Shown: positions 11,102 to 16,407 of the stretch, piece by piece
Position numbering within the stretch: position 1 is the first letter of the stretch
Layout of the letters: every line of letters starts with the position of its first letter
Source: a virus
Length of the DNA: 24,425 bases
IMG/VR virus record: IMGVR_UViG_3300029908_000145
Coordinates: 1-24,425 of that record
Direction: 5' to 3' (one strand)
The notes under the pieces: model-generated
Told to the model about the DNA's origin: nothing
Seen by the model: only the letters and a program-made list of their open reading frames with translations
Databases searched by the model: none
Position numbers and translations under genes: made by a program

Positions 11102-11400
11102 AAATGTAATAATTACTCCCGCACGCGTTCGATGTGCCGTCGCTATTCACTAAGAACAATACATCTTGCTCGTCGATAGCTCGTCGCTGATTGCACTGCA
11201 TCATCAACAAGCGGGTTAGAAGTTGTCAACAACTATTTTGTCGTCGGGTAAGCGTACCAATCGGATTGAATAAAACAGCGTCGGTATGTCCGTCGGTGTA
11301 ATGGCGTGGTATAGTTTTCGTGTGGCCAGCAAGGCAATCGTGCCAAGCAGCCAAAGCAAGGCCGGATGAAGAGCCAAAGATACGGCCAGAAGAGGGTAAA
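11102..11400. other. Non-coding stretch with CGTCG words before the ArdC gene
   Basis: No convincing gene on either strand. It has six CGTCG words on the plus strand (11138, 11171, 11182, 11242, 11279, 11291), two of the intervals being 11 and 12 bases, and a dyad AGTTGT-ca-ACAACT at 11221-11234. A GGCCG/CGGCC pair lies close to the ArdC SD. No strong promoter for the plus operon was found by eye, though it must start here. Confidence 0.4.
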
Positions 11401-12201
11401 ATGATCAACGAAAAAGACATGGAATACAAGATCAAGGAATTATTGGGCAGCAAGATGCAAGCGGGAGAGCTGGACTTTTTACGCGGCTTTTATCAGATCC
11501 CCGGTGTATATCGCTATAGCATACGCAATAGCATACTTATTGCTATTCAAGGCGGATCAATAGCGCTTGGGTTCGATCGTTGGCAAAAACTAGGGCGTCA
11601 CGTCAAACGCGGGGAGAAGGCTAATATTAGTATATTAGTGCCTAATATTATCAATGGCAAGGCTCCAGCTGGCCCGGCCGTTGACGCGGATCTGGATACG
11701 GCGCGATGCATTGGCTTTTTTGACAAAAAAGTTTTCGATATTACCCAAACGGACGGAAAGCCGCTTGAATATCTTAATAACAGTAGTGAGGTTATTAATA
11801 CCAGGTTTGCAGTGGCGGCCCCGGTATTATCCGCGGCGCTTAAAATTAAGATCACAAGCGCTATCACTGGAAGCGCTCGCGGGTACTTCTCGCAAGGTGT
11901 AACAAGCGGCGGCCCGGAAATAGTTATCTCAAGCATGAGCAACAATAGTGACCAATGTAAAACATTATTTCATGAATTAGGGCATTATATACTAGCTCAT
12001 GATCAAGGCGGCCAGGTCCCGGCCCAAGAGGTCGAAGCGGAGCTAGTATCATTTTTGACGTGCTCCGCGCTTGGAGTTGAGTTCCGCGAAAGTCCTTTAT
12101 ACATCAAGTCCTATAATGAGAATAAACCTTCAGTTAGGGTATTGAAGGTTATTAGCGCGGTGCAAAAGATATTAAAGGCGTTGGAACCTGCCACAGTCTA
12201 A
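11401..12201 (+). CDS. ardC: ArdC-like antirestriction protein
   Basis: 266 residues from ATG 11401, which has SD AGAGGG; an open extension to 11320 has none. The N-terminal domain shows the ArdC pattern YSIRNSILIAIQGGSIALGFDRWQKLGRHVKRGEK, then ISILVP, GFFDKKVFDITQTDG. ArdC N-domains bind single-stranded DNA. Near residue 190 comes CKTLFHELGHYILAH, an HExxH metallopeptidase site, followed by E(V)EAELVSFLTCSALG, the typical third-ligand helix of the IrrE/ImmA-like domain. Plasmid ArdC proteins protect incoming DNA from restriction. It heads a plus-strand cassette of small genes and ends before a perfect GC hairpin. Confidence 0.85.
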   Translation: MINEKDMEYKIKELLGSKMQAGELDFLRGFYQIPGVYRYSIRNSILIAIQGGSIALGFDRWQKLGRHVKRGEKANISILVPNIINGKAPAGPAVDADLDTARCIGFFDKKVFDITQTDGKPLEYLNNSSEVINTRFAVAAPVLSAALKIKITSAITGSARGYFSQGVTSGGPEIVISSMSNNSDQCKTLFHELGHYILAHDQGGQVPAQEVEAELVSFLTCSALGVEFRESPLYIKSYNENKPSVRVLKVISAVQKILKALEPATV

Positions 12202-12208
12202 CTAACAA

Positions 12209-12230
12209 GCGGGCCGGATCATTGGCCCGC
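12209..12230 (+). promoter_or_regulatory. Intergenic hairpin 1 of the ArdC cassette
   Basis: GCGGGCC (12209-12215) pairs perfectly with GGCCCGC (12224-12230); the SD AAAGGAT of the next gene follows 9 bases later. There is no T-run, so it is not a terminator. The bases after it (GCATACATTGAAAGG) nearly match those after hairpin 2. Confidence 0.6.
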
Positions 12231-12251
12231 ATACATTGAAAGGATAATTAT

Positions 12252-12446
12252 ATGACTATTCAAATTGAATTAAGTATCGAAGAAAAAACAGAAATTGGCC
12301 GTACTATATGCCATTTATTAGAATTAAAGAAAATTAGGAACCATGAGAAACATGATCGTTATTATACGGCATGGGGGGATAAAACCTGCCTTGGTATATA
12401 TGAAACAGTCAAGCGCGTGATTGAAGAAGAAATTAAAACAGTCTAA
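12252..12446 (+). CDS. Small hypothetical protein
   Basis: 64 residues, SD AAAGGAT. N-terminal MTIQIELSIEEKTEIGRTIC is followed by HLLELKKIRNHEKHDRYYTA, a Trp-Gly turn and a C-terminal helix YETVKRVIEEEIKTV. It reads as two helices around a short turn, acidic overall. No family recognised. It is the second gene of the ArdC cassette, flanked by hairpins on both sides. Confidence 0.65.
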   Translation: MTIQIELSIEEKTEIGRTICHLLELKKIRNHEKHDRYYTAWGDKTCLGIYETVKRVIEEEIKTV

Positions 12447-12455
12447 CACTAATCC

Positions 12456-12490
12456 GCCAGGCTCCAGCGCGGGCCTGGCATACACTGGAG
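12456..12490 (+). promoter_or_regulatory. Intergenic hairpin 2 with possible SD-pairing loop
   Basis: GCCAGGC (12456-12462) pairs with GCCTGGC (12473-12479). The loop begins TCCAG; with the closing C it gives CTCCAG (12462-12467), complementary to CTGGAG (12485-12490) in the next gene's SD. The RNA could therefore form a pseudoknot or switch that hides the SD of the gene at 12500. Confidence 0.5.
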
Positions 12491-12499
12491 GGTATTAAA

Positions 12500-12922
12500 A
12501 TGACTCAATTAGAAATAACCTACTACGAAGCAATTAAAAGGATCAATAAAGAAAATGGGTATGTTAAAGCGCCTGCACTTGTATCCACTGGCACGTTATG
12601 CCAGCCCGCGCAATTTACACGGCCGGCCGCGATAAGCGCCAGGGTGCCTACAATAGGACAATTAAAAGATAAGAAATACCGTTTTATCAGTGATCCTGGC
12701 CATGCCTGGCTGGAAGTGCCAAAAGCGGACGTATACGCGGCCGGCATAGCGCAGGAAATAAGCGGATATTCGTATATACACGGTAAATATGTATATCTTG
12801 AAGAGGATTGCGATGCTGGCCTCTTCATTGACGCCGTTAAATTGACAAAGGATAATATCATTGATGTATATAAGGATCAGGTTGAAATCAGGGATTATCA
12901 ATCCTGGCCAGCTTTTAAATAA
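12500..12922 (+). CDS. Conserved small protein of plasmid/phage accessory type
   Basis: 140 residues, SD GGAGGG. Residues 60-110 carry RFISDPGHAWLEVPKADVYA, then ISGYSYIHGKYVYLEEDCDA. I know this DPGH-WL-V...S-YSY....YLEED-DA pattern from uncharacterised small proteins on plasmids and phages, often beside ArdC-type genes. The N-terminal 50 residues are variable. Its role is unknown; company with ArdC suggests anti-defence or establishment. A GTCCGG/CCGGAC hairpin follows the stop. Confidence 0.7.
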   Translation: MTQLEITYYEAIKRINKENGYVKAPALVSTGTLCQPAQFTRPAAISARVPTIGQLKDKKYRFISDPGHAWLEVPKADVYAAGIAQEISGYSYIHGKYVYLEEDCDAGLFIDAVKLTKDNIIDVYKDQVEIRDYQSWPAFK

Positions 12923-13568: not shown

Positions 13569-13744
13569 TAAATACCAAATCACTCAGAGAACAATATAAG
13601 CGCGAGCGGAACCTTATGAGTCGGGACGCCGCAATCGGTGGGATAATTTTGGCGATCATTGGAGGGGTGACAATCGCCCTGGCAGTCCGGGGCGCTTGCT
13701 GGCTAATAATGGCTATGCCTCACGCGTGGTTATGTATAAAATAA
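13565..13744 (+). CDS. Small single-pass membrane protein
   Basis: 59 residues, starting in an ATGA overlap after SD GGAGGG. A basic N-terminus (YKRERNLMSRD) precedes a long hydrophobic stretch at about 22-41 (AAIGGIILAIIGGVTIALAV), then RGACWLIMAMPHAWLC, which may be a second short membrane segment. No family recognised. Small membrane proteins in phage accessory cassettes may act on the cell envelope or exclude other phages, but that is not shown here. Confidence 0.6.
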   Translation: MINTKSLREQYKRERNLMSRDAAIGGIILAIIGGVTIALAVRGACWLIMAMPHAWLCIK

Positions 13745-13754
13745 GGGGGGTAAA

Positions 13755-13922
13755 ATGAATATTAAACAGTATTTAAGCAAAATAGGTAAGAAGGGCGGAT
13801 CCGTGTCAGGCGGCCGCAAGGCAGAGGCAGCACGCGCAAATGCGGTAATGGCACGCGCGGTCAAAGCAAACAAGACAGTAGGACCGGCCATGGTGGCCGT
13901 AACGAAAGGTAGTGACATATGA
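13755..13922 (+). CDS. Small basic KGG-type protein
   Basis: 55 residues, SD GGGGGG. MNIKQYLSKIGKKGGSVSGG is followed by RKAEAARANAVMARAVKANK. The GKKGG-S...R-AEAARANA pattern is a common short motif in bacterial and phage small proteins, where it forms basic helices likely to contact nucleic acid; the precise role is unknown. The end KGSDI overlaps the next ATG as GACATATGA. Confidence 0.6.
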   Translation: MNIKQYLSKIGKKGGSVSGGRKAEAARANAVMARAVKANKTVGPAMVAVTKGSDI

Positions 13923-14464: not shown

Positions 14465-15805
14465 TTAATCCTCCCATTTTTGTTGATCTTGTGGAATATG
14501 TTTTTTTAATCCATTTTTAAAACAAACCCCTATATAACAACGTGTTTGTTGACCATCAATATATAATCTATTTTTCTTAGGATTCCATCCTTTTTTACGC
14601 ATGTATTCATTAATTGCTTTTGGAAGTAAATATTTATTATATTGATAAATTCTCTCTTTAAAATTTTTAATTGTGACGTATGTTTTTTCTTCAATATCAC
14701 ATTCATCCTCAATAAATTGACCAATAGAATCTTCTTCTTCTTTATATTCTTCAGTGGTATCCATGATTGACGCAGGTGTGGGTAGTCCTGATTCATGGTA
14801 TTTTTTATATCCTTCAATTATCCATTTGAGTATGCCAGGCAATTCTTCTTTTAATTTTAGAGGCAATTCACGATCATCATTATTATCCTCAACTTTAAAA
14901 TCAAATGGGATCATTCTTATTCTTCGCCAAATGCCATTATCAGTTCCGCGTATGTTAGGCTTGTGATTACTTGAGAATATAATTTTAAAGGTTGGCATAA
15001 ATTCAAAAAATTCTTTATGTAAGAATCGAACTTTTAACATATCGGAGCCAGTGAGTTTCTTTATACATCCTTCATCAAGCGTAACATTCTGGTTAGTTTC
15101 TATCATTGAAACTAAACGACATCCTTTAAGGCTTGCAATGTCATTTGGGATGGTATGTTCATCACGTTTAACAATTAAAGTGGATGTAGGACAAACACCA
15201 GCATAATCATTAAATATTTGACGTATTGTTTCTATAAATGTTGACTTGCCATTCCTTCCGTCGCCATTGAATATACACATACATTGTTCTTTGGTAAATG
15301 GAGTAAGTGAATATCCAAGATACCGTTGAATAAAATCTATAATTTCTTCTCTACCTAAGAAAATATCATTAACGAATTTTATCCATGTAGGACATTGGGC
15401 GTCTTTTAAGAAATCTACTTTAGAAATTTTAGTTATTAAGTCAGCGGATGAATGAGGTTGAAATTTAAAAGTTTTTAAATTGATTGTGCCATTATTACAA
15501 TTAAATAAATAAGGATTAGAGTCAAAATTTTCGGCAGGCTCATAAAGATCAGGCTTTGAACAATCAATCATCGCTTCTAATTTTCCTACGTTCCCAGTGT
15601 TTTTAACATGGGTTGCTAATAGACCCTTTTGAGTATCATCACCAGTAAAATTTGTTAAATCCATTATAAGGTTTTCATATACATCCATGCTGTATTTTTT
15701 AACAAGTCCAGGATGTAATTTTTCCCAATATTTTCCATTAAATTCAAAGAAACCGCCCAACGGATCACAGAATTTTAGATTCGATTTGTGAAGGTGGACG
15801 AACAT
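14465..15805 (-). CDS. SF3/D5-type replicative helicase (P4-like), without primase domain
   Basis: 446 residues from ATG 15805. N-terminal D5_N-type region (residues 5-150: FCDPLGGFFEFNGKYWEKL; YLFNCNNGTINLKTF). ATPase core: Walker A GDGRNGKST (181-189), Walker B-like RLVSMIETN (230-238), motif C IIFSSNHKPN (275-284) and arginines IWRRIRMIPF (292-301). A winged C-terminal part follows (350-446). P4-family proteins usually carry a primase upstream, which is absent. ATG 15805 has no SD; GAGAGGAG lies six bases before an in-frame AUU at 15832, so the true start may be AUU (nine residues longer). It unwinds DNA at the phage origin. Confidence 0.88.
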   Translation of the reverse strand: MFVHLHKSNLKFCDPLGGFFEFNGKYWEKLHPGLVKKYSMDVYENLIMDLTNFTGDDTQKGLLATHVKNTGNVGKLEAMIDCSKPDLYEPAENFDSNPYLFNCNNGTINLKTFKFQPHSSADLITKISKVDFLKDAQCPTWIKFVNDIFLGREEIIDFIQRYLGYSLTPFTKEQCMCIFNGDGRNGKSTFIETIRQIFNDYAGVCPTSTLIVKRDEHTIPNDIASLKGCRLVSMIETNQNVTLDEGCIKKLTGSDMLKVRFLHKEFFEFMPTFKIIFSSNHKPNIRGTDNGIWRRIRMIPFDFKVEDNNDDRELPLKLKEELPGILKWIIEGYKKYHESGLPTPASIMDTTEEYKEEEDSIGQFIEDECDIEEKTYVTIKNFKERIYQYNKYLLPKAINEYMRKKGWNPKKNRLYIDGQQTRCYIGVCFKNGLKKHIPQDQQKWED

Positions 15806-15910
15806 TTCTTTGTTGTAGATGTCGTTAAAAATTTTTAACTCCTCTCAAACATCTTTTATTATTTGCCTGTTCTGTCCAAGTTGCCCATTTGCAATTAGAT
15901 AGTAACCTTA

Positions 15911-16042
15911 AAATAAAAATACCCAGGAAACCTTGCGGTTTTGTGTCGGGTAGACAACCTGGGCATAAGAAAGCCGAAGATAATTAAATCTTCGGCATTA
16001 AATATATTTCTTGCAAAAATTTTACGTCTACCCGATTCATAT
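15911..16042 (-). ncRNA. Structured leader RNA with attenuator upstream of the helicase
   Basis: Read on the minus strand: UCGGGUAGAC (plus 16026-16035); perfect hairpin GCCGAAGAU-uuaauu-AUCUUCGGC (15973-15996) followed by UUUCUUA; CCCAGG (15958-15963); GUCUACCCGA (15946-15955), complementary to the first element; AAACC-GCAA-GGUUU (15928-15941), a GNRA tetraloop hairpin; CCUGGG (15922-15927) closing on CCCAGG; and a U-rich tail (15911-15921). It is thus an attenuator whose loop is exactly complementary, over 10 bases, to the 5' end of the same RNA. The GNRA loop and U-tail exist only in the minus sense, downstream of a promoter. Confidence 0.65.
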
Positions 16043-16048
16043 TTCTAT

Positions 16049-16075
16049 ATTATACCAAGGTATAATTGACGTCAA
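16049..16075 (-). promoter_or_regulatory. Promoter and dyads of the helicase operon
   Basis: Minus-strand TATAAT (plus 16049-16054) with TTGACG 15 bases, or ATTGAC 16 bases, upstream, placed just after the stop of the Acb2-like gene. The promoter overlaps two dyads: ATTATACC-aa-GGTATAAT (16049-16066) and the palindrome TTGACGTCAA (16066-16075), candidate repressor sites. Confidence 0.6.
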
Positions 16076-16080
16076 TATAT

Positions 16081-16407
16081 TTATGCTTTATTTTTCTGTC
16101 CAGCCCACTTAGCCCACACAACCACAGCATTGATCTGACCTAACGCCTGGGAACGCTCGCGGCCTTCTTGGAAATTCTCGATAAGGAACATTGAAAATTC
16201 ATAGGCGTGGTTGTTTAAGGCAATTCTTAGATGTTCTGGTAATGGTTCTTCTTCTTTAAACGTCCGGTCTGCGCGTAGGATGTCGGCTTGAACCATCGTC
16301 AAACGAACCATCTCCAAAGGCTTCTTGGATAGTTCTGATACTGGTAGGTCGGTTTGTTCTTGGCTTGAGGGGGGGGTTAGGGTTCCGTCTTGGTGTTGGT
16401 GATCCAT
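16081..16407 (-). CDS. Acb2/Tad1-like cyclic-nucleotide sponge (anti-CBASS/anti-Thoeris)
   Basis: 108 residues, SD AGGAG, TAATG overlap with the upstream stop. Residues 1-60 are a polar tail plus a helix (KKPLEMVRLTMVQADILRAD). Residues 65-102 form the helical hairpin NNHAYEFSMFLIENFQEGRE-RSQALGQINAVVVWAKWAG. The E-(G)RE(R/K)S-AL--(L/I)--A--WA--A pattern is that of the Acb2/Tad1 hairpin domain, known to sequester cyclic oligonucleotide or cyclic-ADP-ribose signals of CBASS and Thoeris defence. The long N-terminal tail is unusual. The call rests on motif recall and needs profile comparison. Confidence 0.6.
   Translation of the reverse strand: MDHQHQDGTLTPPSSQEQTDLPVSELSKKPLEMVRLTMVQADILRADRTFKEEEPLPEHLRIALNNHAYEFSMFLIENFQEGRERSQALGQINAVVVWAKWAGQKNKA

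Follow-up and report, generated by a model that had tools for sequence, protein, structure and literature searches.

How does a phage control the expression of its replication helicase, and can such control be left to RNA? The question is raised by a leader RNA region on the minus strand (16042 to 15911) of a viral sequence of 24,425 nucleotides, referred to here as the window, by which the whole stretch analysed is meant. The leader lies between a small gene (16407-16081) and the gene of a D5_N/SF3 helicase, and it contains two complementary elements (A and A') and two terminators (T1 and T2). The initial annotation took it for a possible RNA immunity switch resembling those of phages P4 and P1/P7. 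Several questions follow. Is the complementarity an accident? Do A and A' pair in cis, in trans or in both ways? Does a ribosome take part? Why do close relatives carry different pairing letters? The answer favored here is a two-terminator attenuator that controls the replication helicase through RNA-RNA pairing, with a short RNA acting in trans, a reading for and against which we find the chances evenly balanced.

The elements were read directly from the window sequence (Table 1), and the promoter, A, T1, T2, A' and the GCAA hairpin all lie on the minus strand exactly where the initial annotation had put them, to the base, including an A' within the T2 loop that is the exact 10-base complement of A. 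Transcription is predicted to start at 16042 from a promoter whose spacer of 15 nt is below the ideal length and which has an extended -10 TGG. A dyad, TATACC-TT-GGTATA (16049-16064), overlaps the -10, and sequence comparison finds both the promoter and a near-identical dyad in a related phage, G001, which is also the only other viral contig with a match to the promoter-region motif ATTATACNTTGGTATAATATA. A more distant relative, G004, has a similar dyad, TTATACCTAAGTATTA, but upstream of its promoter; these dyads are possible candidates for a repressor operator. T1, which has a weak U tail in the window, is the sole terminator-like site of its type within 15700-16300, and the U-rich tail of T2, UAUUUUUAUUUU, runs to 15911. 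The leader RNA folds at -43 kcal/mol as compared with -26.4 +/- 3.8 for shuffled sequences, 4.4 sd below them. About 40 bases after T2 (15850-15890, minus strand) resemble the 3' end of the small gene before the leader (TGGGC..TGGACAGAA..AAATAA), which might be a remnant of leader exchange; as a duplication the likeness is weak and was set aside, 11 of 500 shuffles scoring equally well.

Table 1. Features of the leader and of the adjoining helicase gene, in window positions.
Feature	Position	Strand	Sequence or remark
Promoter	16049-16075	-	TTGACG 16075-16070; TATAAT 16054-16049; N15 spacer; extended -10 TGG
Element A	16026-16035	-	TCGGGTAGAC (UCGGGUAGAC); +8 to +17 from predicted start; exact complement of A'
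Near-leaderless ORF	15984-16040	-	MNRVDVKFLQEIYLMPKI; stop TAA in T1 loop; overlaps A
T1	15973-15996	-	9-bp hairpin; tail CUUUCUUAU, U-rich to about 15965; proposed short-RNA end
T2 attenuator	15911-15963	-	CCCAGG 15963-15958 / CCUGGG 15927-15922; encloses two hairpins
Hairpin a	15956-15944	-	inside T2; overlaps A'
Element A'	15946-15955	-	GTCTACCCGA (GUCUACCCGA); T2 interior; overlaps hairpin a
Hairpin b	15928-15941	-	AAACC-GCAA-GGUUU; GCAA loop; inside T2
Probable helicase start	15830-15843	-	AGGAG 15843-15839; AUU 15832-15830
Helicase (regulated gene)	14465-15832	-	Pfam D5_N 2.9e-22, DUF5906 2.4e-10; SF3-type, without prim-pol domain

Terminators are common in the intergenic gaps of phages, and the leader could be imagined as two ordinary terminators standing back to back, with a complementarity that arose by chance. 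A detector was written for the layout, requiring an 8-mer A, a short-loop terminator T1 after it and, further on, a terminator T2 whose loop encloses A'. Run over both strands of the two sequences, window and G001, it matched only the window leader and its orthologue. Dinucleotide shuffles amounting to 9.1 Mb gave six matches at 8-mer stringency and one at 9-mer stringency, so that about 0.07 chance matches are expected per real scan against the two observed, which stand at orthologous sites. With a third leader in G004 and the compensatory changes described below, the probability left to such an accident is negligible; three-way conservation already refutes it.

The same detector revealed no second family at about 100 other loci (SF3 helicases and related capsid or terminase genes), where a match in L017 was rejected because its T2 falls inside a primase coding sequence. 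It is silent on the P4 leader, which served as a positive control, because the P4 targets do not lie in terminator loops. A scan of genome contigs yielded no helicase relatives above about 40% identity. The view that this RNA is unrelated to known families agrees with the absence of any Rfam match in the window at gathering score; around two of the leaders, a search up to E 5 gave only sub-threshold chance matches and no phage immunity RNA. One of these, L10_leader on G001, was dismissed as sub-threshold, scoring 26.8 bits (E 0.012) where the cutoff is 44. Comparison of the leaders with phages and plasmids by blastn gave no relevant match, and weak Vibrio phage matches were discarded, since their positions fall after T2, outside the switch.

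Three leaders can thus be compared, and the helicases of two of the phages are near-identical. G001 (IMGVR_UViG_3300014838_000052) shares its promoter with the window and has a helicase protein 98% identical to the window one, but its leader differs: its 5' element UGCGAGGAC matches GUCCUCGCA inside T2 (CCCCUGGU/GCCAGGGG), and its T1 is CCGACGGUG/CGCUGUCGG with U7. G004 (IMGVR_UViG_3300049716_000014), whose helicase is 53% identical, has GGCGAGG as the 5' element, CACCGA/UCGGUG as T1 and CCCUGG/CCAGGG as T2 with CCUCGCC inside; this leader was recognized by inspection of the orthologous site, because its perfect A:A' core of 7 bp is under the detector stringency. T1 is found at the same place in both relatives, as are an orthologous T2 and a hairpin equivalent in place to hairpin b, and the three leaders are homologous, their alignment scores exceeding those of all shuffles. 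The layout is constant among the three phages while the pairing letters differ. By hand alignment, A and A' form standard pairs in 28 of 30 cells, with changes on both sides in four of the 10 columns; double changes also occur in two of nine columns of the T2 outer stem, two of four in hairpin a and three of four in hairpin b, and the T1 row is not relied on, the G004 register there being uncertain. Compensatory change of the 10-mer pairs, which the initial annotation had named as something to look for in relatives, is therefore present, and the leader is confirmed as a real feature that is conserved and covaries. A second loop contact, B:B' (ACAGUUAA/UUAACUGU), was dropped as a general feature as it occurs in G001 only, where it joins the 5' arm (L010:1416-1440) to the loop of hairpin b (1505-1535) and crosses A:A'.

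What do A and A' do to each other? In cis the A:A' helix encloses the 5' arm of T2, and the two structures cannot nest; the folding with RNA energies used here ignores pseudoknots, and the A:A' helix and T2 might coexist. The best A:A' fold and the best T2 fold differ by at most 3.3 kcal/mol in all three leaders (-40.6/-37.3 in the window, -43.8/-45.6 in G001 and -37.7/-36.4 in G004). In the free leader the probability of T2, P(T2), is 0.007 for the window, 0.80 for G001, which slightly prefers T2 even without masking, and 0.14 for G004. Masking of A raises it to 1.0 in all three, and masking of A' to 1.0, 1.0 and 0.95, respectively. In the model, the leader has antiterminator and terminator folds that exclude each other, are close in energy and are toggled by masking either element, and attenuation by alternative folds is well supported. 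When each 5' arm was joined to each T1-T2 part, an arm opposed its own T2 only, P(T2) being at least 0.92 in all six heterologous combinations; shuffled arms gave a mean P(T2) of 0.86-0.99, against which the G004 arm is not significantly unusual (8.75%). Duplex energies in trans are likewise best for self pairs (-19.5 for the window with itself, -8.3 and -9.8 with the others), that of G004 being not significantly unusual among shuffles (64 of 500). Cofolding of the short RNA with T2 was set aside because kissing cannot be represented.

The cis action of A:A' against T2 was absent from the initial annotation. As A:A' opposes T2 in cis as an antiterminator, a trans copy of A would favor termination; in the fold model A is thus most likely an antiterminator in cis and termination-promoting in trans, and trans action of the short RNA is plausible. 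The process may be outlined as follows: RNA polymerase would start near 16042 and make A, and some transcripts would end at T1, giving a short RNA of about 70-80 nt that carries A. In transcripts going past T1, A is proposed to pair with A' in cis, because A' is transcribed ahead of the T2 3' arm. This helix spans the T2 5' arm, so that T2 would stay unfolded and transcription would enter the helicase gene. When the short RNA accumulates, at high copy number or with a resident relative, its A would occupy A' in trans; the cis antiterminator would then fail to form, the outer stem of T2 would fold, transcription would stop and the helicase would be shut off. The same element would mean 'go' in cis and 'stop' in trans. 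We infer in this way the short RNA, its trans action, its effect at the level of the helicase and a role in immunity or copy control.

The sign of the trans effect might also be the reverse. The short RNA could be a trans activator like IsrK of Gifsy-1, its terminated form binding the read-through form and turning it on; a precedent exists for short and read-through RNAs from the same promoter of which the short one acts in trans (PMC4825925), and a positive sign is compatible with the folding. The masking of A' alone favors T2 in all three leaders, however, and the target of IsrK is translation whereas here it is a U-tailed terminator, with no isrK match in Rfam, which makes an activator improbable.

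Does a ribosome take part? The leader contains a near-leaderless ORF, also absent from the initial annotation, that overlaps A and ends in T1. It starts at +3 in the window, +2 in G001 and +1 in G004 and ends inside T1 in all three, encoding peptides of 18-22 codons (MMIHCEDVSTVKGQNILTPTVI in G001 and MLKARLKTLEDHSFSAPTV in G004; see Table 1 for the window). When the upstream part is shuffled, such an ORF arises in 1.3, 2.8 and 1.3% of cases for the window, G001 and G004, respectively. Its translation could open T1, or mask A during initiation, and the putative translation is a likely second input, since a ribosome at the stop would open T1 and one at the start would cover A. The conservation of the ORF suggests an input from translation that the trans model does not require. 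Might the leader be a translation-coupled attenuator working in cis only? A ribosome at the stop in the T1 loop would open T1, and A:A' would then block T2 in cis; without translation T1 would end the transcript, and the short RNA would be a by-product. Besides the ORF in three of three leaders, this account is favored by the effect of masking A, as an initiating ribosome would, which drives P(T2) to 1.0 in every leader. Tandem attenuators with leader ORFs are also known, for example that of Salmonella mgtCBR (PMC3641672). Against it, the ORF lacks a Shine-Dalgarno sequence and no peptide is conserved beyond P(T/K)(V)(I)-stop. A further point against it comes from the exchange of pairing letters between near-identical phages with the architecture kept: a purely cis-acting element gives no obvious reason for it, whereas an element of trans specificity would explain it. 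We regard control in cis alone as possible but rather unlikely.

This exchange is seen most clearly between the window and G001, which are 90% identical in the upstream gene and up to the -10, and 96% identical in the helicase (93-100% along almost its whole length), but 72% identical in the leader, where shuffled sequences align at 61%. The relation is the other way round between G001 and G004 (79% in the leader and 68% in the helicase). From this mismatch the leader and the gene that it controls seem to have had separate histories. The incongruence is suggestive of an exchange of specificity, as at immunity or incompatibility loci; since these phages are mosaic it falls short of proof, and in mosaic genomes the swapping of a leader is not in itself proof that specificity was under selection. 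A design that two related phages keep while its pairing letters differ points to an RNA switch governing phage replication, with a possible part in distinguishing self from non-self. Of the P4/c4-like switch first suggested for this position, much has held: the element before the D5_N/SF3 helicase is real, its architecture is kept, A:A' has changed in a compensatory manner, and the specificity differs between phages with 98% identical helicases. What had to be added is the effect of the pairing in cis, where A:A' opposes T2, together with the near-leaderless ORF. The observed features are those expected of an RNA immunity or incompatibility switch, which is to that extent partly supported.

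The controlled gene probably begins at a non-AUG codon. In the window an AUU precedes the first helicase ATG by nine codons and follows the Shine-Dalgarno sequence AGGAG by six bases, and the codons after it align with the ATG-started N-terminus of G001, MYNDIYNKEM, and with YND of G004, whose equivalent site (L117, near 11146) has an AUC seven bases after AAGGA; both Shine-Dalgarno sequences are good ones. As the upstream homology reaches AUU or AUC, a non-AUG start is likely in two of the three phages; G001 uses AUG. The gene before the leader (window 16081-16407, minus strand; G004 L117:11703-12062, minus strand) encodes an Acb2/Tad1-type small protein; the G004 homologue, which shares 40% identity with the window copy, matches Pfam Acb2_Tad1_hairpin (1.6e-14). 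The Acb2/Tad1 family includes cyclic-nucleotide sponges that counter CBASS or Thoeris defence. A gene for an anti-restriction/M78-peptidase-like protein is apparently split in two in the window (11320-12922, plus strand); it is one ORF in G001 and G004, and both window pieces match L117:7243-8430. In the gap between the helicase and this gene, an ORF segment ALTARA..RPPDTDPP.LPI is conserved (window 13730-13918 and L117:8753-9028, both minus strand); it might represent some other feature read in the reverse frame. A DEAD/ResIII helicase ORF of G004 (L118:343-1899) contains an intein splicing domain (PF14890, 7.4e-15).

What life style does such a leader serve? No integrase was found among about 20 non-structural proteins scanned in the 46-kb G004 record, which include RecT, YqaJ, VRR-NUC and a DnaG-type zinc ribbon, as well as the anti-restriction (M78-peptidase-like) and Acb2/Tad1 hairpin proteins. 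Because a virulent, a plasmid-like and an integrating life style are all possible, 'immunity' is one possibility beside copy control or replication timing. The leader might even be a replication RNA, an origin transcript or primer under folding control: extrachromosomal mycobacteriophages need non-coding RNAs, and ColE1 RNA II is a comparable replication RNA. It adjoins a replication helicase, and prophage origins based on RNA have been described (PMC7157519). Against this speak the two terminators in which the RNA ends, immediately ahead of the helicase, its sense orientation, its covariation as an attenuator and the absence of iteron-like repeats in 15700-16150, and we consider it very unlikely. 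As a tentative and on the whole doubtful generalization, these leaders, from podovirus-like phages in which no integrase was detected, may represent a novel family of RNA switches that target themselves and are gated by the ribosome. A single element of 8-10 bases would serve as antiterminator in cis and as a repressor inducing termination in trans, so that a phage would count its own copies and exclude or tolerate relatives by interchangeable letters.

How does this leader compare with known systems? To our knowledge very few systems are known in which RNA alone controls phage replication and immunity (P4 and P1/P7). If the proposal is true, it would add an independent and compact one, with no detectable homology to P4 or P1/P7, in uncultured phages without a detected integrase; if trans action holds, the opposite uses of one element in cis and in trans would amount to a simple circuit for sensing copies. 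The three variants found in nature, whose predicted specificities exclude one another, lend the idea to a direct reporter test in a laboratory strain.

In the satellite phage P4, the small CI RNA pairs with sites in the leader of the left operon and stops transcription of the replication genes early (PMC4825925). The present leader is like it in standing upstream of a D5_N-type replication primase/helicase, here D5_N/DUF5906 directly downstream, and this part of the likeness to P4 noted at first stands. The P4 sequence has three complementary elements, TTCACAGG (8651), TCCTGTGAA (8464) and TTCACAGGA (8384), which we take to be seqA, seqB and seqC, with the regulator in the middle, and its CI RNA has been reported as a product of processing. 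The leader is P4-CI-like in its working but falls outside that family, as it has two elements, with the 5' end serving as regulator and an intrinsic-terminator loop holding the target, and there is no sequence match to P4, either in Rfam (where a dedicated P4 CI family is possibly absent) or by blastn of the leader. The overlap with a near-leaderless ORF and the lack of a detected integrase are further differences from P4.

The c4 RNA of P1/P7 is a phage antisense RNA in which altered pairing letters bring about heteroimmunity (PMC12197685). Both are phage-encoded RNAs complementary to their own targets, but what c4 blocks is translation in the region of the ant ribosome site, whereas here a terminator before the helicase is concerned: A' lies inside T2, and the probable helicase start is more than 100 nt further on. 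The Rfam C4 family gave no match. With IsrK, one promoter gives rise to a short terminated RNA and a longer read-through RNA, the latter being the target of the former (PMC4825925); unlike the present leader, to which no homology was found, IsrK is an activator of translation, and its action leads to an antiterminator protein. The leader is like trp-type and mgtCBR tandem attenuators in that an ORF overlaps alternative hairpins, and we know of no complementary trans-capable element with swapped specificity described for these. In the copy control of pT181 and pIP501, pairing with an antisense RNA decides whether a terminator or an antiterminator forms ahead of a replication gene, and its specificity gives incompatibility; their antisense RNA comes from the opposite strand, whereas here the regulator would share promoter and strand with its target.
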